The position numbers and the translations under genes are program-made. Shown one piece after another: positions 1 to 9,034 of a stretch of DNA of 64,000 nucleotides (the first letter of the stretch is position 1; every line of letters begins with the position of its first letter). Under the pieces are notes generated by a model. The model was not told where the DNA came from and ran no database searches. It saw only the letters and a program-made list of their open reading frames with translations. The stretch spans positions 4,507,539 through 4,571,538 of the forward strand of contig NC_009633.1 of the NCBI RefSeq assembly GCF_000016985.1. The letters run 5' to 3'. This stretch comes from Alkaliphilus metalliredigens QYMF (GTDB lineage Bacteria; Bacillota; Clostridia; Peptostreptococcales; Natronincolaceae).

Positions 1-623
1 ACCAAACCTACTGTGTCCTGGTCAAATATTGTTCTAAGAATCTCCATCTTTTTTTGTGTGTACTTTGTAACTAGCTTGTCAGCTTCGTCCACGATTAAGA
101 GGTACCCTCGATTCACTTCGAAAAATTCCTTAATTCCCTTGACTCTTTTCCAGATCGAACCGTAACCCTGAGGCAGCCCTATAGCTTCTTCAATAGCCTC
201 CACTAAGTCTCTACTTCCCATGGAATCATCACATTCCACATAACACACTCGGTCTAGCTTTGCATATTCCTTCAATGTTTCGGTCTTTCCAAAGCCTGAT
301 TTACCTACGATAACACCAAGCCCTTGATCTTCTTGGCACCCCTGGCATACTCCCATGATGTCCTCCACATCTCGCGTAATGAAAAGTTCATCTCTTAGTT
401 GTCGCACTACCTTCTCTTTTCCTGCCTGTTTTTCATCTAAAAACCTTCTGATTGCAAGTTCTAACTCGATTGATTCATAGTCACCTGATAAGTATCTAGA
501 TAATGCAGTTCTGCTGTACCCAATCTCCTTGCTTGCTTTTTCTTTACTCATGCCAGTTCTCTTTAAAAGCTCCTCCATCTCCTGTGCAAGCTCCGGTGCA
601 TTTCTATATAGTTGTACTGCCAT
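1..623 (-). CDS. MuB-like AAA+ transposition ATPase (3' end off the window)
   Basis: This is the target-DNA-binding ATPase that works with a MuA-type transposase. Read on the minus strand from ATG at 621-623, about 207 residues are visible. The N-terminal 60 residues look like a helix-turn-helix DNA-binding domain. A Walker A motif, GKSGFGKT, lies at residues 107-114, and a Walker B motif, LLIVDEAD, follows further on. That order (HTH then ATPase) is the MuB arrangement. The start is supported by AAAGGATG upstream. It begins 15 bases after the end of the transposase C-terminal reading frame, so it is in the same operon. The C-terminal third is outside the window. Confidence 0.85.
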   Translation of the reverse strand, partial: MAVQLYRNAPELAQEMEELLKRTGMSKEKASKEIGYSRTALSRYLSGDYESIELELAIRRFLDEKQAGKEKVVRQLRDELFITRDVEDIMGVCQGCQEDQGLGVIVGKSGFGKTETLKEYAKLDRVCYVECDDSMGSRDLVEAIEEAIGLPQGYGSIWKRVKGIKEFFEVNRGYLLIVDEADKLVTKYTQKKMEILRTIFDQDTVGL

Positions 624-638
624 TATTAATCATCCTTT

Positions 639-1121
639 CTATCCTAGTTTTTTTAGTGCAGCTAAGGCTTTCGCCGATTGACGTTCAAAATATTCATTCT
701 CATCACTTTTTTGCTTTGTCTTTTTGTGTTTGAGTTCATCTTTATATTGTTCGTCCTGGGGAATCGCCACAACTTTGTCATTCTTATTCGCCATTTCAGG
801 TGTGACAATCTTTTTATCAGCATTTTCAATAATATCTTTCTCATGCTGCTGTCTTTCCTCGTAAGTCATCTGGCGATATTTTACTTTATCAGTCTCATTT
901 CTTAAATGACGTTTTTGATCTTTATTGTGCTCTTCAAAGGCCTTTTGTGACAGTTTTGGTGCGATTCGTAACAGTTCATAAGATACAGCTTCACAAACTT
1001 TTTTACCTTCTTTGTTATAAACATAAATTCTTGTAATATCTTCTGGATGGTACCTGATATCAACTCTTTGTCCAATGTATTTTGATAAATCTTGATTTTG
1101 ATAGGTAAATTGCCTTCCCAT
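639..1121 (-). CDS. C-terminal part of MuA-like transposase, displaced by frameshift
   Basis: These 160 residues begin with the small beta-barrel that normally ends the catalytic core of Mu-type transposases (motif YIGQRVDIRYHPED...IYVY...CEA). A charged helical tail follows, possibly the part that contacts MuB. The reading frame overlaps the end of the 545-residue transposase frame by 62 bases. Removing one G from the GGG run at 1117-1119 would join the two frames as ...TRDGRQFTYQ. An ATG sits exactly at the shift (1119-1121), but no ribosome binding site precedes it. A mutational or sequencing frameshift is more likely than an independent gene. A reinitiation product or slippage cannot be excluded. 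Confidence 0.7.
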   Translation of the reverse strand: MGRQFTYQNQDLSKYIGQRVDIRYHPEDITRIYVYNKEGKKVCEAVSYELLRIAPKLSQKAFEEHNKDQKRHLRNETDKVKYRQMTYEERQQHEKDIIENADKKIVTPEMANKNDKVVAIPQDEQYKDELKHKKTKQKSDENEYFERQSAKALAALKKLG

Positions 1122-2697
1122 CCCGTGTAATCTTGATTCCCATGTTGGTTACACTTCGCTCTTCACTTTCTAATAAGAGACTTAAAGCATATTCCAATGG
1201 TGGCGCTGCTTTATAATATCTTTCAGCGTGGTGAAATACATCGACTGGAACAGGGCTTTCTTCCCCTTGATCCTTTAATCCGCCATGGACCCTCGTATGA
1301 TACTTTTCTACCACCCATTTTTCAAATTTCTGTGCAAATTCTTCCATTGTCATTAACTCGCCATTTTCTAGCATCTTTGCAATATCTTTCTTCACCTTGG
1401 CGTCGGTCTTTGATCCCGTTAACGTGCCGGTGTAACTAATCGTTCTCTTTGTGAACTTCTCACATACAGTTCCAAAAAATCTCTCCACTTGCGCCTTGCT
1501 CCACGGTTGGAATGGAAGAGATCTCATATCATCTTCAATACCTATGCTACGGTAAAAACCTTTCACGTCTGCATCCAGTTGTACCCTGATTTTTCTAGAC
1601 CTTCCTGTTAGAGATTCCGCCGTATACTCTTTCCCATTGTCAATCAAGAGATATTTACAAACCCCGTAAGGTAGTAATGAATTTACTTTAGGATAAAAAG
1701 CATTTATCAAACTCTTCTTGATGATGAGTGCATCAGGATTCTCTGCAACAGCCCAACCCACTAAAGTTCTACTTCTCATATCCAACCAACCAACCAATGC
1801 AGGACGTATTGCTTGGAGCTTTCCATTGGATCTTCTCACAGACACCCAACAGTCAAATGAATGAACATCTCCTTGCAGCACTTCCAGTACTTGAAGACTT
1901 TCAACGTCTCTTTTCCGTTTCATCATAAAATCATTCTTCCACTGCCGTTTCCCTCTAGCCACTAATGCAGTTGCCCCTTCTCCGTCTTCCTTCTCTATAT
2001 GTCCAATGTATCTCCATACGGTGTCATAGCTAGGGAGAGGTAATCCTTTTTCAATTGTCCAATCCTCCAGGTCTTCGTATAGGTTTGTCAGCGGTTGATT
2101 GTTCTCTTGGAATACTTTGGAATAAAAGATATTTTCAATTTTCGTCTTCACCGGCTCCGTCAGAGACGGGAATTGGTTTTTCTCCCGTGGCTTTCGGCAT
2201 AAAGCAAGAACCATGAAATAGTCATAATTTTTCTTGCTAGCTTCTTCCATGGTATCTGCCCAGGCTTTAGCTTCTATATAATCTTTCACGCGACTTAGTA
2301 ACGTTCGACTGCTAACCTCTAACTTTTTTGCAATTTCCGTTGCGAATTTCGTTTTGTTTTTCCCTTCATAATTGAGATAGATTTCAATTTGCTTAGAAAT
2401 CTCCACCGCCTCATAAAAATATTTACTGTAGTTCTTTCTGTACCAAGATATGTCCACTTGGGTATACCAAGGAGCTTCCTCTTTATTATCAGGAACTTCA
2501 TGCTTTGCTTTATAAGTTCGTCGAGCTTTTTTAGTTAATGAGTCCAGGGCTACCATCACCCTATCCTTCCCACCGCTCTCCGACGGCTCAATTGTTGTTT
2601 CAAAGTCTTCTTTGTTACGCTGAATTTTTCTATAAAGCGTATAGTAGGCAACTCCTTCTAGCTTAGCCGCTTCCTCTATGCTAATGTATGCTTCCAA
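1060..2697 (-). CDS. MuA-like DDE transposase (frame ends early by frameshift)
   Basis: This is the recombinase that cuts and joins the phage ends. The 545-residue frame opens with an HTH segment (about residues 5-30). The RNase-H-like core carries the expected acids: Asp in LQGDVHSFD, Asp in LIDNGKEYT and Glu in KAQVERFFGT. The start is a TTG at 2695-2697, chosen because a GGGGGG ribosome binding site lies just upstream and no ATG fits. The normal C-terminal barrel is missing from this frame and is found in the next frame (639-1121), so the gene is split near 1113-1119. All catalytic residues are in this part. Whether full-length protein is made depends on whether the shift is real. Confidence 0.85.
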   Translation of the reverse strand: MEAYISIEEAAKLEGVAYYTLYRKIQRNKEDFETTIEPSESGGKDRVMVALDSLTKKARRTYKAKHEVPDNKEEAPWYTQVDISWYRKNYSKYFYEAVEISKQIEIYLNYEGKNKTKFATEIAKKLEVSSRTLLSRVKDYIEAKAWADTMEEASKKNYDYFMVLALCRKPREKNQFPSLTEPVKTKIENIFYSKVFQENNQPLTNLYEDLEDWTIEKGLPLPSYDTVWRYIGHIEKEDGEGATALVARGKRQWKNDFMMKRKRDVESLQVLEVLQGDVHSFDCWVSVRRSNGKLQAIRPALVGWLDMRSRTLVGWAVAENPDALIIKKSLINAFYPKVNSLLPYGVCKYLLIDNGKEYTAESLTGRSRKIRVQLDADVKGFYRSIGIEDDMRSLPFQPWSKAQVERFFGTVCEKFTKRTISYTGTLTGSKTDAKVKKDIAKMLENGELMTMEEFAQKFEKWVVEKYHTRVHGGLKDQGEESPVPVDVFHHAERYYKAAPPLEYALSLLLESEERSVTNMGIKITRDGKAIYLSKSRFIKIHWTKS

Positions 2698-2787
2698 GAT
2701 ATCCCCCCTTTACAGTTGGCATGGGGAGAGTGTATAATGAAGGGGATTAGAACTCGTACTGTCAGTTTCTAATTATCCTAGTTTTTC

Positions 2788-2824
2788 GAGGTGTCGCTCT
2801 GGTGCGATGCCTCTTTTCTTTTTT
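2788..2824 (+). terminator. hairpin with plus-strand T-tract upstream of the transposase
   Basis: GAGGTGTCGC and GCGATGCCTC form a ten-pair stem (two G-U pairs) with a 6-base loop, followed on the plus strand by a T-rich run. It would stop plus-strand (antisense) transcription coming through the transposase gene. In the early-operon direction it has no T-tract but could fold in the leader. Function is inferred from shape only. Confidence 0.4.
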
Positions 2825-2855
2825 GCTAAGATATTCCCCTTCATTGGTTCTCCTT

Positions 2856-3080
2856 TCATGCCGTTTTACTTTTTACCGCTATCTTTTTTGCCTGTTCACC
2901 TTCGATTACAGATCGAATTTTGTCACGGTAATCATAGCCAGGGCGCAGTCCATACAAAATCATAGAGAGAAACCTTTCATCTATGCCTATGCTTTCACTT
3001 AATTCTCGCTGAGTCATATCCAGCTCTAGAAGGCTTTGCTTGATCCATAGACCAAATTCTGTCATCTTGTTCTTCCTCAT
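2856..3080 (-). CDS. small HTH (XRE/Ner-like) phage regulator
   Basis: A protein of about 74 residues, almost entirely a Cro/C1-type helix-turn-helix. The segment MTQRELSESIGIDERFLSMI fits helices 2 and 3. In Mu the small gene directly before the transposase is ner, an early-transcription repressor, and this protein sits at the same place. The Ner-like role is inferred from position and fold. The ATG at 3080 was preferred because GGTGGTGAG precedes it at a workable distance. GTG codons at 3092 and 3089 are in frame and possible. It lies in the leftward early operon, 158 bases before the transposase. Confidence 0.7.
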   Translation of the reverse strand: MRKNKMTEFGLWIKQSLLELDMTQRELSESIGIDERFLSMILYGLRPGYDYRDKIRSVIEGEQAKKIAVKSKTA

Positions 3081-3104
3081 ATGTCTCACCACCTTCCTCT
3101 TACA

Positions 3105-3575
3105 CTAGTTGTTCCTAATGACAAATATCGTTGCAGGTCCTTCCTCTTTAATGCGAGAACCATTTCCCTTCACTTGATAAAATTGCCCCGGACTTACTTT
3201 AATCATCTTAGCTCCATGTCGATTGGCTAGTTCTTTAGCTAGCTCCTTCTCCTTGTAGTCCTTTAGCTTCTTTCCTAGTCCAAAGAACACATCATCGTCC
3301 CCCTTAACTTCTTCTTTCTTAGCAATCCCAAATGTTTCTTCGAAAGAAACACCCTCTTGCCTTGCTTCACAAATCCTACTCTTCTCATCATCGAACACCC
3401 AAAGCACATTTACTTCTAACAAAGGTTCTATTTCAAACGTCCTGCCTACGTACTTCTTCAGCACATTAGATGTATAATTTTTGTTTTTATACCTTATAGA
3501 TCCACCCTTGCCAACCTTTCTTTTCTCTATCACATAAACGCCCCCTTCTTTAGCTAGCAGTAGCCAGTATTTCAT
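3105..3575 (-). CDS. stand-alone MuA C-terminal-barrel-like protein
   Basis: Function is unknown. Residues of about 22-75 resemble the C-terminal barrel of the transposase in the same prophage. Here the order is GGSIRYKNKNY, KKYVGRTFEIE, VLWVFDD and ICEA. In the transposase it is DGRQFTYQNQDL, SKYIGQRVDIR, IYVYNKEG and VCEA. The rest is charged and helical, ending in a predicted beta strand. It overlaps the upstream 68-residue gene by 26 bases, so translation is probably coupled. The start may be the ATG at 3575 or a GTG at 3584. A DNA- or transposase-binding accessory role is inference from the shared domain. Confidence 0.6.
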   Translation of the reverse strand: MKYWLLLAKEGGVYVIEKRKVGKGGSIRYKNKNYTSNVLKKYVGRTFEIEPLLEVNVLWVFDDEKSRICEARQEGVSFEETFGIAKKEEVKGDDDVFFGLGKKLKDYKEKELAKELANRHGAKMIKVSPGQFYQVKGNGSRIKEEGPATIFVIRNN

Positions 3576-3756
3576 CTCTTTCACTTCGTAATGCTACAAT
3601 CTGTCTTTTTAGCTCCTGCTTTCTTAGCTCCACACCAGGTGTATTAAAAATGTCTATGTGCTCCTTCGCTAACCTGGTGTGTAATAATGTAATTTCTTTC
3701 AGCCTGTCCCATTGCTGCTCGTTTAAATTCCTGATATGCTGCAATGTTAGCTTCAT
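3550..3756 (-). CDS. small helical phage early protein, unknown function
   Basis: This 68-residue protein is rich in charged residues and predicted to be mostly alpha-helical (LKRQIVALRSERDEILATAS at the C-terminus suggests a short coil). I do not recognise the family. It has an excellent ribosome binding site (AGGAAAGGAGG, seven bases before ATG). It overlaps the start of the next early gene, which supports a real, translated member of the early operon. Confidence 0.6.
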   Translation of the reverse strand: MKLTLQHIRNLNEQQWDRLKEITLLHTRLAKEHIDIFNTPGVELRKQELKRQIVALRSERDEILATAS

Positions 3757-3856
3757 ATCTAAGCCTCCTTTCCTTTGTTTATATTTAATTGATACCTTTT
3801 AAAGGTTTGTCCCTCTTCTTTGTAGAATTTTGTGATATAGGAAGGGGGTGAACCTT

Positions 3857-4105
3857 ATGAAATACAAACAACATGATATTAATGGGAAAGGATTTTATGT
3901 CGATCCCGAGTTACTAGCTCACGACTTAGCTATCCTGAAAATATCTAAGTCCGAAAAGCTTAAAGAGTCAACAAATGAATTTCTGTATTACCAAGCCTAC
4001 ATTGAAGCGCTTCATGATTTTAGAACTATGGTAGATGGCAAAATTCGTTATGACAGTACTATCTCGGTTGATAATCGTGCTAAAACTGCTTTAAGTAACG
4101 ACTAA
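3857..4105 (+). CDS. small hypothetical protein on the strand opposite the early operon
   Basis: About 82 residues with no recognised domain. It is polar with predicted helices (PELLAHDLAILKISKSEKLK). The ATG at 3857 is preceded by GGAAGGGGG at good spacing. An in-frame GTG at 3848 lies inside that site and is less likely. It points against the flanking phage genes, and its stop codon overlaps the convergent small gene by four bases. A plus-strand gene inside a Mu-like early region could be a lysogenic or cargo (moron) gene, but nothing in its sequence shows what it does. Confidence 0.5.
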   Translation: MKYKQHDINGKGFYVDPELLAHDLAILKISKSEKLKESTNEFLYYQAYIEALHDFRTMVDGKIRYDSTISVDNRAKTALSND

Positions 4106-4281
4106 TCTCTTATACTCTTTCTTGCTGGGGTCATAAGGGCAGTTCCCTCTACTCTCCCTATTGCTTCTTTTAAAACTCCAATAGTGTATAGAGCGGTTAA
4201 ATTGCCCTTCCCCTCTTCTTCCATTTCATCAACTATCAATTTGATTATTTTATTAATAACTACATCTTTTTCAACCATCAT
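4102..4281 (-). CDS. first small gene after the early promoter, unknown function
   Basis: About 59 residues, acidic and helical, with no family recognised. AGAGGAGG lies five bases before the ATG at 4281, a strong site. GTG at 4287 and ATG at 4278 are alternatives. It is the first gene downstream of the leftward early promoter at 4489-4516, a position often held by small host-takeover or regulatory proteins in phages. No function can be assigned. Confidence 0.5.
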   Translation of the reverse strand: MMVEKDVVINKIIKLIVDEMEEEGKGNLTALYTIGVLKEAIGRVEGTALMTPARKSIRD

Positions 4282-4488
4282 TTTCACCTCCTCTCAACGT
4301 TGAATTTTCAAAGAAATATACTTATCTACATTAAATCCTTCTTTCTCCGGCACCATGCAGGGTGTGCCTTGCAGCTCTATACAGGTCTTTAAGATAAAAA
4401 CCCGTGAAAGGATGTACACAATACATATGTTTGGTTAATACTTCTTAAATATGGTAAAATGTTTGTAGGAAAGTTCTAACATAATTAA

Positions 4489-4516
4489 ATTATACCACAA
4501 ATGAGAACTAAGTCAA
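4489..4516 (-). promoter_or_regulatory. phage early promoter, leftward
   Basis: On the minus strand TTGACT (4511-4516) and TATAAT (4489-4494) are separated by 16 bases, close to the sigma-A consensus. It would drive the early operon toward the transposase genes and faces away from the repressor gene. Its -35 box lies inside the palindrome at 4501-4530. Confidence 0.75.
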
Positions 4517-4530
4517 TAATTAATTCTCAT
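4501..4530. promoter_or_regulatory. palindromic operator overlapping the early promoter
   Basis: ATGAGAA (4501-4507) and TTCTCAT (4524-4530) are exact inverted copies, and the -35 box of the early promoter lies between them. It is placed where the adjacent repressor would block early transcription. That the repressor or the Ner-like protein binds here is inference. Confidence 0.65.
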
Positions 4531-4588
4531 TATTTCAACATAGAAACACATTAATACAAATAAGGAGAACATTAAGGGGGAGTTTGTA

Positions 4589-5353
4589 ATGATTGAGAAC
4601 TTTTCTACAGTAGGGAAAAGAATAGAAAAATCACTTGAAGTGCTTGGAATTAAAGCTGTTGATGTATGCAGATCATCTGGAATATCTAAAAACGCTATGA
4701 GTAACTACATAAATGGCAATAGAGTGCCAAATGCCGAAATTCTCGTTAAGTTATCTGATGTTCTCAAAGTTTCAATTGATTGGTTGCTAACAGGCAAGGG
4801 CAAAGGTCCTGAAAAAGCAGCTAATTTTATTTTTCAAGAACCGGTAATAGAACAGGATCTAGTAGCAGAGTCAGAAGCTTCTTACTTCCATCAAGTGGAA
4901 GACATCGTTCGTTATAACATTGAAATAGGAAAAAATATTACTCACGTTAGAGAAGATGCCAAGATGGATGTTGAGCAGCTGGCAGCAGCTATAAATATTA
5001 AACCACAGGCTTTAAAGGATTATGAGTCAGGAAAAAAGGTTATCCCTTCCTATGTGATCCACCGGATATGCAAGGAACTTTCGGTGCTTCCACTTTTCTT
5101 GCTCGATCCAGAAGAAGTAATAGATAAGGAATACAAATCCGAAAACGCAGACTTCGGGCATTCCTTGACTCAATTTGAGCAAGATACACTTCACTTTTTC
5201 AGGGAATTATCCAGGAGTGACCAGGAAGAAATTGCACATATGATTACATTCAAGCATGAAAAAGGTAACAAAAAGGGACGCTCATCCAGATCCACGAATG
5301 GAGACAACAGAAACGATGAACAAGCAGCAGCCAGTGAAAAAAAGATGGCTTAA
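4589..5353 (+). CDS. phage repressor with two XRE helix-turn-helix domains
   Basis: This 254-residue protein has a Cro/C1 HTH at residues of about 6-70 (VCRSSGISKNAMSNYINGNR) and a second XRE-like domain at about 110-175 (VEQLAAAINIKPQALKDYES). A charged linker and tail follow. No LexA-type protease signature is visible, so induction by self-cleavage is not supported. It is divergent from the early operon and is separated from it by the promoter/operator, as Mu c is. It most likely maintains lysogeny. AAGGGGGAG precedes the ATG. A weaker plus-strand promoter (TTGGTT about 18 bases before TAAAAT, near 4433-4462) could serve it. Confidence 0.8.
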   Translation: MIENFSTVGKRIEKSLEVLGIKAVDVCRSSGISKNAMSNYINGNRVPNAEILVKLSDVLKVSIDWLLTGKGKGPEKAANFIFQEPVIEQDLVAESEASYFHQVEDIVRYNIEIGKNITHVREDAKMDVEQLAAAINIKPQALKDYESGKKVIPSYVIHRICKELSVLPLFLLDPEEVIDKEYKSENADFGHSLTQFEQDTLHFFRELSRSDQEEIAHMITFKHEKGNKKGRSSRSTNGDNRNDEQAAASEKKMA

Positions 5354-5378
5354 TTTTTATGTCTTTTGTTAGAGTTTT

Positions 5379-5692
5379 CTAACGTTATTTTTTGTCCCAT
5401 TTGTTGGAGTTTTCATACAAAATACACTGTTTTTTTGTTCAATTGCTTTTTGTCTTATTTTTATCGTATTGTAGCCTTCTACCTATTGCAAAAACTTCAA
5501 TTGAACAGGTTTTATCAAAAGACTCGATTTTGTTCAATTGCTTTTTGGCAATTTGCAGTGTATTTTTTACATATTATGGTTAAAAACCAACTTTGTTTTT
5601 TTATGATGAAACTCTAGTAACGGTTGATTTTACTCAATTCTTGAATTTTATTTTGTTAATTGTAACGTTCACTAACGTTTCGACTAACGGTT
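5379..5692. repeat. TAACG boxes, candidate transposase binding sites
   Basis: Copies of (C/G)TAACG(T/G)T occur at 5379-5386, 5617-5624, 5662-5669, 5672-5679 and 5684-5691. The last three are spaced 10 and 12 bases apart, about one helical turn. All lie in the gene-free end of the prophage. Binding by the transposase is inferred from position and periodicity. Confidence 0.5.
5436..5547. repeat. 17-bp direct repeat with an inverted third copy
   Basis: TGTTCAATTGCTTTTTG occurs at 5436-5452 and again at 5531-5547. The core CAATTGAACA occurs in opposite orientation at 5498-5507. This is a second box family in the element's end, possibly for the transposase, the repressor or a bending protein. Confidence 0.5.
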
Positions 5693-5736
5693 TTTGAGTT
5701 TTTCAAAAATGTCCCATTGCTTATTAAAATTCAAAA

Positions 5737-5792
5737 AACGTAAAAAAGCACTTAAACCCTTATATTACAAAGGTTTAAGTGCTTTTACGTTT
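5737..5792. terminator. long hairpin downstream of the repressor
   Basis: AAACGTAAAA...GCACTTAAACC (5737-5758) pairs with GGTTTAAGTGCTTTTACGTTT (5772-5792) in a stem of about 20 pairs with A and T tracts on both sides. It could stop transcription in either direction at the element's edge. Confidence 0.55.
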
Positions 5793-5964
5793 GATTTTAA
5801 ATTTAATTTGCATTTTAATTTGCAATTATCCCGCAGGCCTATCCCACTCCACACCGACTTCCCCCTAGGCTTCCCATGATAACTGGGTTTGTCGTGACTT
5901 AACTCGACCTATCCCGGTTCTAATTTTACCCTGTGTCTTATGCAGGTTATCTTACAAATCTACA

Positions 5965-6016
5965 TTCAGTGCTTCTAATCTAGGAAACAAAATATTATTC
6001 TCAAGATGGATGTGCT
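5965..6016. repeat. 52-bp copy of the 3' end of ric, left of the IS
   Basis: Identical to 8328-8379, inside and just beyond the ric stop codon. It directly abuts the left inverted end of the IS and is too short to encode anything. It is best read as the surviving part of a long target duplication made by the IS. Confidence 0.85.
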
Positions 6017-6042
6017 CCTGACTTCGGAACATCATTCATAAT

Positions 6043-6087
6043 AAAAAGTGCTGAAGCCATCTGTTTACAGAGGTTTCAGTACTTTTT
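6043..6087. terminator. terminator inside the left end of the IS
   Basis: AAAAAGTGCTGAAGCC (6043-6058) pairs with GGTTTCAGTACTTTTT (6072-6087), with three mismatches. It lies just downstream of the transposase stop and has A/T tracts on both sides, so it can end the transposase transcript and shield the IS from flanking transcription. Confidence 0.6.
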
Positions 6088-6105
6088 ATTTTTGTTTTGC
6101 ACTCA

Positions 6106-7965
6106 CTACATCTTTTTAATTATATTGGAGATTTCATTACTCAGTAGAACATTCTTTTCAATTTTAAATATGTCTTGGTTTATTTTGCTCTTAAATAATT
6201 TGTCTGAGATCATATATAATTTGTCTACTTTGTAATCAATCTCATCTATAACAAACCCTTCTAGACCATTGATTATTTCATGGGTAGATATTTCAACGTT
6301 TTTCTCTTCTAATTTATACTCTAATACTCTCTGGATGACTAAGGCCAAATAACAAATTAAAAAATGTGACCGGATTCTTCGTTCTTTAAAGTGATACACA
6401 GGTCTTGCTTTTAAATTTGTTTTTAATATTCTGAAGGACTCTTCAATTTTATACAGGGATTTATAAGCCACCATTATATCTGCTGGATTCATCTCTACTT
6501 TATTGGTAACGATGTAAAAATATCCGAAATTCTCTTGTTCTTGTTTAATTTTTTCTTCATCGATCTCAATGTTTATTTTCTCTTTAGGATTATCAACAGC
6601 TTTGTAATACTTGCTTTTAGATTTAGTTGTTGAATTAATTGTAAAATCTTTTATATTTTTTTTCGCTCTTTCAAGCATTTTATCTTGTTTAAACATCTCC
6701 CGTTCTTTGTAGACATCTGAATATTTTTTTATGATTAATTCATCATAGGTTTCATCATTGTGACTCACTTTTCTTTTACTGGTGATATAGCCGCTTTTAT
6801 ATTTAGCCTCGGCTTTAGAAGTGATGTTCCAAGATGAATTGAATTTCTTCTCTTTTAGATCTTTAGGCACTGCACTGCCCTTAGAACCTACAATGTAGTT
6901 AAGCCCTTTGCCACGGATCATTTCTAAGTTAGCCCTTGAATTTAAGCCTCTGTCAGCAACGATAATAATTTCTTTTATGGTGTAATTATTTAATATATCG
7001 TCAATGACCTCTTCCATGGTATGTAATTCATGTTTGTTGCCTTTGAAAAGCCTATAGGAAATAGGGATGCCATTTGTGTCTATTAATAAACCCATAACCA
7101 CTTGTGTTTCATTTCTTTTATTATCCTTACTCATGCCTCTTTCTCTAAAACCGTCTTCATCAAAAGACTCAAAGTAATAGGTTGTGCAGTCATAAAAGGC
7201 TAAAGATATATTTCTTTCTGGAACAATCTTTTCCATATGTTTATTGAGATGTTTGAAAAGTTTGTTTTCATTCATTTCAAAATTACTATCATAAGACGTT
7301 ATTAGTTCTTCTAATTCGTGAGAGGTATTGTTTATGTTAGTTTCTAATATTTTTTTAGCCTCTGAATCAACGGTATCTAAGAGAATCTCCATATCGTTTA
7401 TGACTTGAATGCCATCTTGTAACGCTTTAGATTTATGTTTATTAAATCCAGAAAAAACATCCAAAGAGGAATAAATATTATCGTTATTTACAAAATTAAA
7501 ATCATACAGGAAATCATCCTTTCTAGTAGCTACTTCAAGCTTACTAGAAGGATTGAATAATCTACCAAGTACTTGATAGAACATCATATCGCTAAAAGAA
7601 TAATCAAGTTTAGAGTCTTTGACCATCTTAGAAAAGAAACTTTGTAATTTCAATTGGTTAAAGATTTCTAAGTATGGTAGATAGCCAATATTTTTATGCT
7701 TAAGAGAAAGCTTATCTTTTGACATGGATACAATAAAATCTTCAAAGTTTTCAAATCCTCGAGAAGCTTCATCTAGTCTAATCATTTCTTTTAGCTCAGC
7801 TTCAGCTTGCACAAGAGCTTTCTTACCTGATTTAGAATCCAAATCATGAGTACCAAAACCTTTAATCTGAATTTTTTTTGATTTCTTAGTTTCAGGATCT
7901 CTAATCCCCTTAGCAATTGATATGAAATACTTACCATTTGGTCTTTTAGATTTACTAATATACAT
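6106..7965 (-). CDS. IS1634-family DDE transposase
   Basis: This protein of about 619 residues catalyses movement of the IS. Catalytic acids fit Asp in AFYDCTTYYF, Asp in VADRGLNSRANLE and Glu in YKIEESFRILKTNL, the YREK-like signature of IS4/IS1634 transposases. A stretch of about 200 residues lies between the first Asp and the N-terminal domain. The ATG at 7965 is preferred because GGAGGGA stands eight bases upstream. An earlier ATG at 7980 has no such site. It is the only gene of the IS and reads away from ric. It appears full length without frameshift, so the element may be active. Confidence 0.88.
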   Translation of the reverse strand: MYISKSKRPNGKYFISIAKGIRDPETKKSKKIQIKGFGTHDLDSKSGKKALVQAEAELKEMIRLDEASRGFENFEDFIVSMSKDKLSLKHKNIGYLPYLEIFNQLKLQSFFSKMVKDSKLDYSFSDMMFYQVLGRLFNPSSKLEVATRKDDFLYDFNFVNNDNIYSSLDVFSGFNKHKSKALQDGIQVINDMEILLDTVDSEAKKILETNINNTSHELEELITSYDSNFEMNENKLFKHLNKHMEKIVPERNISLAFYDCTTYYFESFDEDGFRERGMSKDNKRNETQVVMGLLIDTNGIPISYRLFKGNKHELHTMEEVIDDILNNYTIKEIIIVADRGLNSRANLEMIRGKGLNYIVGSKGSAVPKDLKEKKFNSSWNITSKAEAKYKSGYITSKRKVSHNDETYDELIIKKYSDVYKEREMFKQDKMLERAKKNIKDFTINSTTKSKSKYYKAVDNPKEKINIEIDEEKIKQEQENFGYFYIVTNKVEMNPADIMVAYKSLYKIEESFRILKTNLKARPVYHFKERRIRSHFLICYLALVIQRVLEYKLEEKNVEISTHEIINGLEGFVIDEIDYKVDKLYMISDKLFKSKINQDIFKIEKNVLLSNEISNIIKKM

Positions 7966-8195
7966 GCACAATCCCTCCATAAAATCCCTCTAACTACATT
8001 ATACATCATATTATTCACCACGACAAGTCGTGGGCGTAAATAAACAAAAAAATAATGAGAAATGTTCAAATTTAAACATTTACTCATCATTTGTTCTGAA
8101 TTTATGTTCTGAAGTCAGGTTATACTTGGACTGTTGGTTCCATCGTTATTCTGTTTTCTCTTCTTTAGTTTTTAAAATAATAGGGTTACTTTAAT

Positions 8196-8244
8196 AAAAA
8201 GAGTAAAGTCCTGCGACATAGAATCGCTGAACTTTACTCTTTTT
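8196..8244. terminator. terminator downstream of ric
   Basis: AAAAAGAGTAAAGT (8196-8209) pairs exactly with ACTTTACTCTTTTT (8231-8244), with T-tracts for both directions. It lies 75 bases after the ric stop and would end its transcript. Confidence 0.75.
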
Positions 8245-8320
8245 ATGTTATTGTAGTAAAGAATTATCTTTTCTATATTATGAAGATTTCCTCCGTATAA
8301 ACATACTAAAACTTGTTTAA

Positions 8321-9034
8321 TTACTTTTTCAGTGCTTCTAATCTAGGAAACAAAATATTATTCTCAAGATGGATGTGCTGGAACAGATCTGACTCTAACA
8401 TTTCCAATCCTTTAAAAGTTAACTCATAGGAATGGCATCCGCCACTTGGTACCTGATACTGATCCGTAATATGTCTAAGTTCCTTAAGAATATCTCCTGC
8501 CCCTTCATGTTCAGATTCTAATTCATCTATTACGTTAATTGCCTTGACTAGCAACTCATTAGATGGCTGTGCCTCATAGGCTTTTATCAACGGGAAAAGA
8601 ATCTCTTCCTCTTTAATTAGATGCTGATCTAGTTCCATTTTTAAGCTGTGAAATAACTTGTGTACCTTTGAAAGTACTTTGCCATGATCCACACCGTGCA
8701 CCCGATAAATCTTTGTGGTTAAATCACTTAGTTTTGGTAATTCCCTCACTAAATAAGTGTGATGTGTACTGATAACGTGGTCAATCAAATCACTAAATGG
8801 TGCCATCTGCCAGTCGATCCCTTTATCCTGTAGGCTCATTACTTTATTGTGTGCTTCAGTTAATGCACTTAATACTCTTTCTTCATTTAGGTTTTGTTCT
8901 TGTAACACAACCCTTAATGATCGATCTCCTCCACAGCAAAAATCAATTTGATACTTTTGAAAAACTTCACTTGCCTTGGGACATTTTGCTACGATTTCTC
9001 CAACCTTATCTTCACCTGAAAATATATTTTTCAT
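8321..9034 (-). CDS. ric: iron-sulfur cluster repair di-iron protein Ric (ScdA/YtfE)
   Basis: Ric repairs Fe-S clusters damaged by nitric oxide or oxidants, in the cytoplasm. The 237-residue protein has the N-terminal ScdA domain with its paired cysteines (IDFCCGG, about residues 30-36). A hemerythrin-like four-helix domain follows with spaced histidines (DHVISTHH, LIKEEEILFP, HIHLENNILFP) that bind the di-iron centre. Length is normal for the family. GGAGGG precedes the ATG at 9034. It seems to be a single-gene unit with a terminator downstream. The last 52 bases around its stop codon are duplicated beyond the neighbouring IS, but this copy is intact. Confidence 0.92.
   Translation of the reverse strand: MKNIFSGEDKVGEIVAKCPKASEVFQKYQIDFCCGGDRSLRVVLQEQNLNEERVLSALTEAHNKVMSLQDKGIDWQMAPFSDLIDHVISTHHTYLVRELPKLSDLTTKIYRVHGVDHGKVLSKVHKLFHSLKMELDQHLIKEEEILFPLIKAYEAQPSNELLVKAINVIDELESEHEGAGDILKELRHITDQYQVPSGGCHSYELTFKGLEMLESDLFQHIHLENNILFPRLEALKK
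8328..8379. repeat. source copy of the 52-bp duplication (ric 3' end)
   Basis: Identical to 5965-6016. It lies within ric and ends at the base corresponding to the outer edge of the IS left end. If it is the distal part of an IS target duplication, the full duplicated segment would be 8120-8379 (260 bp). Confidence 0.85.

Follow-up and report, generated by a model that had tools for sequence, protein, structure and literature searches.

The window analysed here is the whole stretch of 64,000 nucleotides, corresponding to positions 4507539-4571538 of the genome that was searched (4,929,566 bp, single contig). At its left border lies the repressor/transposase end of a Mu-like prophage (1-5964), terminating in CA at 5963-5964, with the remainder left of the window. 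This end carries a Mu-type transposase A gene (1060-2697, minus strand; PF02914, E 5.8e-9) and, reading toward the prophage end, a gene for a phage repressor-like protein with HTH_3 and Phage_CI_repr domains (4589-5353, plus strand). An exact 20-bp direct repeat (5433-5452 and 5528-5547, 95 bp start to start) is located just inside the prophage end and possibly represents transposase or repressor binding sites. The prophage is followed by a 52-bp segment (5965-6016), an IS1634-family insertion sequence of 2103 bp (6017-8119, minus strand) and a 260-bp segment (8120-8379) that includes the last 49 bp of uppP (8120-8168, plus strand), a terminator-like hairpin (8194-8246, an inverted repeat with 91% complementarity) and the 3' end of ric. 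The latter gene, encoding an iron-sulfur cluster repair di-iron protein, is intact (8321-9034, minus strand; TIGR03652, 259 bits against a cut-off of 204.7).

The insertion sequence, whose ends are set by exact duplications, encodes a 624-aa DDE transposase (6106-7980, minus strand) that contains a PF01609 domain and matches NF033559, the NCBIfam IS1634 model, with 321.2 bits (cut-off 100). Its 16-bp terminal inverted repeats (6017-6032 and 8104-8119) were found to be CCTGACTTCRGAACAT, one end showing CCTGACTTCGGAACAT and the opposite end the complement of CCTGACTTCAGAACAT, and CCTGACTT at both ends fits the terminal-repeat consensus of the family, C-----YT (PMC2266710). Twelve full copies, the window copy included, are present in the genome at 99.9-100% identity. 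The other eleven are flanked by exact duplications of 88, 94, 96, 98, 106, 113, 117, 197, 216, 222 and 318 bp, giving twelve different lengths for twelve copies, the trait known from IS1634 and IS1549. Since the other copies duplicate 88-318 bp, a duplication of 260 bp is normal for this element; the sequence-only reading had considered a duplication of this length by an IS1634-family member at this site. With regard to replication, no trend in orientation was seen by eye among the twelve copies (four minus and three plus in one genome half, two minus and three plus in the other, the halves assuming that the record begins at the origin).

Members of the IS1634 family typically generate AT-rich duplications of 5-6 bp, as summarized in a 2008 review (PMC2266710), and none of the twelve copies, all with 88-318 bp, shows one. 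The same review describes direct repeats that are long and vary in length (8-514 bp) for IS1549 and IS1634, for which no model was proposed; because both are named there as the same exception, long duplications do not exclude membership of the family. By its transposase and terminal repeats, the window element is assigned to the IS1634 family, where it joins the known long-duplication kind. It shares family and long, variable direct repeats with IS1634 of Mycoplasma mycoides and IS1549 of Mycobacterium smegmatis, but is a different element in a different host, every copy has a long repeat, its relatives reach 853-1825 bp, and its two ends differ in site preference. ISPfe2, Acidiphilium IS1634-1 and ISGka5 possess the same transposase family, for which AT-rich targets are reported, yet make duplications of 6 bp. 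A later model for the long duplications was not found in the part of the literature that could be searched.

The 52 bp between prophage and insertion sequence reveal how the two insertions are layered. As had been noted from the letters alone, 5965-6016 equals 8328-8379; the identity is exact over all 52 bp, and an exact 52-mer within 64 kb is far beyond chance. Searching the whole genome with 8120-8379 gave three informative matches, namely the segment itself, genome 4477109-4477323 (query bases 1-215, 100% identity) and genome 4513503-4513554 (query bases 209-260, 100% identity). The apparent 7-bp overlap of the two split matches consists of TTCAG, the 5-bp phage target duplication, plus a chance TG. 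Thus 213 bp at genome 4477109-4477321, outside the window and at the far end of the prophage, are identical to window positions 8120-8332, precisely where the sequence-only reading predicted the missing part, and the predicted 5-bp duplication is likewise present, with TTCAG at both borders (5965-5969 and genome 4477317-4477321). At the far junction the target ends in TTTTTCAG and continues into TGTAGTTTCGC; at the near junction AATCTACA is followed by TTCAGTGC. Judged from these exact matches, the left target copy is complete yet split, into a far part and the 52-bp near part, and the right copy (8120-8379) is whole.

As the phage interrupts one target copy and the other is whole, the insertion sequence came first and the phage second, in line with the proposed order, and the stacked insertions make the order of events unambiguous. 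The junctions show a history of IS insertion with a 260-bp duplication, followed by entry of a Mu-like phage into the left duplicate. In detail, an IS1634-family element entered between convergent uppP and ric, duplicating 260 bp of target; later a Mu-like, Mushu-type phage transposed into the left of the two duplicates, itself making an ordinary 5-bp duplication, and moved the two parts of this duplicate 36 kb apart. An independent duplication or a simple deletion at the left flank is ruled out by the exact far-end match. The reverse order, in which the phage occupied the uppP-ric site before the insertion sequence arrived, is next to impossible and found no evidence in its favour: the target duplicated by the insertion sequence would then have included all 36 kb of phage, and both copies would bear phage, which the unbroken right copy refutes.

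The identity of the prophage is supported by several lines of evidence. It spans genome positions 4477322-4513502 (36,181 bp), beginning with TG and finishing with CA, and its last 308 bp recur twice elsewhere in the genome, beside unrelated DNA. These belong to two further copies of 36,178 and 36,179 bp, with duplications CAAAA and TTGAT, located at G000:C1:418931-455109 and 2018797-2054974. All three dispersed copies therefore have TG...CA ends and a 5-bp duplication, as is characteristic of Mu-like phages, and, together with the MuA-type transposase (PF02914, with matches to Mushu and Mu) and the repressor, they bear out the suspicion that the sequence left of 5965 is prophage-like. Over the two stretches compared, neither of the other copies differs from the window copy, from which recent phage activity follows. 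Among sequenced phages, the closest transposase is that of Faecalibacterium phage Mushu. Mushu and Mu are likewise transposable phages of 36-37 kb with a MuA-type transposase, but the prophage transposase is 44.6% (over 95%) and 24.6% identical to theirs, respectively.

The site into which the insertion sequence moved can also be reconstructed. The whole uppP gene (ORF L028 7331-8158) lies left of the far target piece and reads toward ric, with its final 49 bp inside the 260-bp segment; the insertion sequence landed within the 3' end of ric. Because uppP adjoins ric convergently in five relatives, with uppP 69-78% identical, the ancestral target was probably a convergent uppP-ric junction with a terminator-like hairpin between the two genes. 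Although the cuts fell inside the genes, uppP and ric are both whole, as each 3' end is included in the duplicated segment. The same effect extends to other copies: by simple reading-frame calls, nine of the ten reading frames cut by any of the twelve copies remain whole, because the duplication restores 3' ends as at uppP-ric. Long duplications thereby allow insertion in gene 3' ends without breakage.

Long duplications are common in the IS1634 family, as indicated by 48 that were measured across it, ranging from 32 to 1825 bp with a median of 110. In relatives of about 71-90% identity, lengths of 52, 88, 90, 90, 90, 167, 189, 252, 336, 858 and 1825 bp were found, one of the 90-bp cases (L076) being less certain because it lies in a repeated region. 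The 858-bp duplication has 3 mismatches and stems from a single-contig genome. The 1825-bp perfect direct repeat exactly flanks a related element in Clostridiaceae bacterium HSG29 (L037 2039-3863 and 5966-7790) and, although on draft contig NODE_9, is far above the maximum of 514 bp in the review (PMC2266710). More distant groups (about 35% identical) range from 32 to 1018 bp, with 853 and 1018 bp exact in a single-contig genome (G042), and copies in Mycoplasmopsis gallopavonis have long repeats of roughly 44-400 bp. Ordinary duplications were observed in two elements, with 6 and 7 bp in one (G179b) and 5 bp in the other (L164); among the relatives of about 71-90% identity, a single copy (L074) shows no more than a 6-bp match at its flanks, and for several family copies no duplication was present within the flanks examined. 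Genome G179 contains both kinds, with 6-7 bp at L162 and L163 versus 147-233 bp at L158-L160, which ties the trait to the element and not to the host and offers a natural pairing for transposase comparison. In a tree of 21 transposases, long-repeat elements mostly group together with one short-repeat element nested among them, and several short or unclear ones are on long branches. The duplication lengths gave no clear signal of helical periodicity at 10, 10.5 or 11 bp, and no transposase relatives were found among the viral contigs searched.

Empty sites were reconstructed and the sequence was read outward from each IS end, the ends being classed by which way the transposase gene runs rather than by flanking sequence, in a test of a pattern that had already been noticed. 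For the distant groups, A/T occupies the first five positions beyond the end downstream of the transposase in 100, 92, 96, 92 and 96% of sites, respectively, with T at +2 in 22 of 25. This amounts to 4.76 A/T of 5, compared with 3.2, near background, at the other end (P 9e-7), and under leave-one-out scoring the downstream end wins in 22/25. Read outward, the AT-rich end site is TTATA / ATTATA. In the clade of the window element the two terminal repeats are nearly identical, and either end may be the AT-rich one; a WTWWW sequence is found at one or both ends in 20 of 23 sites, the expectation for any single end being about 6%. When a matrix trained only on the distant groups was applied to the window clade, the better end stood far above random, with none of 2000 random draws scoring as well. 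The weaker end also scored somewhat above random, and the asymmetry is less clean in this clade, some sites being doubly AT-rich. Immediately beyond the duplicated segment on the side of the second end, the ancestral site carried a T in just 1 of 48 cases; among the distant groups it mostly carried G (16 of 25, P 2e-7), which is also the terminal base of the element. A primase start was considered as the source of AG at the second joints and rejected, as the preceding base is seldom the T or C needed for CTA/CTG initiation.

Altogether, the duplications are long, exact and element-specific, with unequal end preference. The two ends are not equivalent, one favouring an AT-rich site and the other having no AT preference, which is apparently new as far as the literature was searched. 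Such unequal preferences favour a decoupled transfer of the two ends. An ordered two-step joining with host copying between the joints is proposed, with roughly equal weight for and against. One end would join first by attacking the AT-rich site (TTATA / ATTATA outward); the other would later attack the opposite strand, in most cases 50-300 bp away and with no preference for AT; and host DNA synthesis would copy the segment between the joints, possibly guided by binding of the transposase to the beta clamp. LINE-type target-primed insertion works in a comparable manner, with a first cut that is AT-rich and sequence-specific and a second that is loosely specified, resulting in variable duplication length. 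The comparison concerns only the way of working: the window element has no RNA or reverse transcriptase, and the enzymes are unrelated. In favour of the proposal, an IS1634-family transposase from Acidiphilium, the one member for which this is shown, binds the beta clamp, stronger binding raising transposition (PMC4549789). Against it, the duplications of that member are 6 bp long, and clamp binding by itself is therefore not the cause of long ones; the reaction order is read from end products; and the above-random score of the weaker window-clade end and the copies with no duplication in the flanks examined also count against it.

The clamp interaction known in the family would also suit a concerted attack by both ends, in no set order, across a single melted or forked target such as a replication fork or transcription bubble, and in any single-duplex model the duplicated strands must separate at some stage. 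This alternative is nonetheless doubtful, since lengths of 853, 858, 1018 and 1825 bp are too long for a simple bubble and the fixed specificity of one end in the distant groups (22/25) suggests unequal roles. Much less probable is later recombination, in which two ordinary insertions at nearby sites on sister chromosomes would be joined by crossing-over within the element. Exact duplications of any length would result, with every border an ordinary AT-rich target; however, two nearby insertions would be required for nearly every copy, although all twelve are long and none has 5-6 bp, and AT-rich sites are predicted at both borders, yet the distant groups lack such a site at one of them. We are highly confident that the best explanation overall combines the IS-then-phage history with decoupled two-step joining, the mechanistic part being, taken by itself, a matter of even chances.

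Extended to the large branch of IS1634-family elements with long repeats, two-step joining would constitute a target-primed-like DDE transposition, in which one designated end takes an AT-rich site, the other has site rules of a different kind (at -1 often G, not T) and the intervening DNA is copied by the host; for the branch as a whole, we regard this as equally likely to hold or to fail. If it holds, duplications would extend from about 30 bp to more than 1 kb, often leaving neighbouring genes whole. The differing site rules at the two ends make the mechanism directly testable. Elsewhere in the family, two copies in genome G309 (L100 and L102, 498732-502184) lie nearly head to tail and share short repeats, an arrangement that perhaps reflects nested or tandem insertion.
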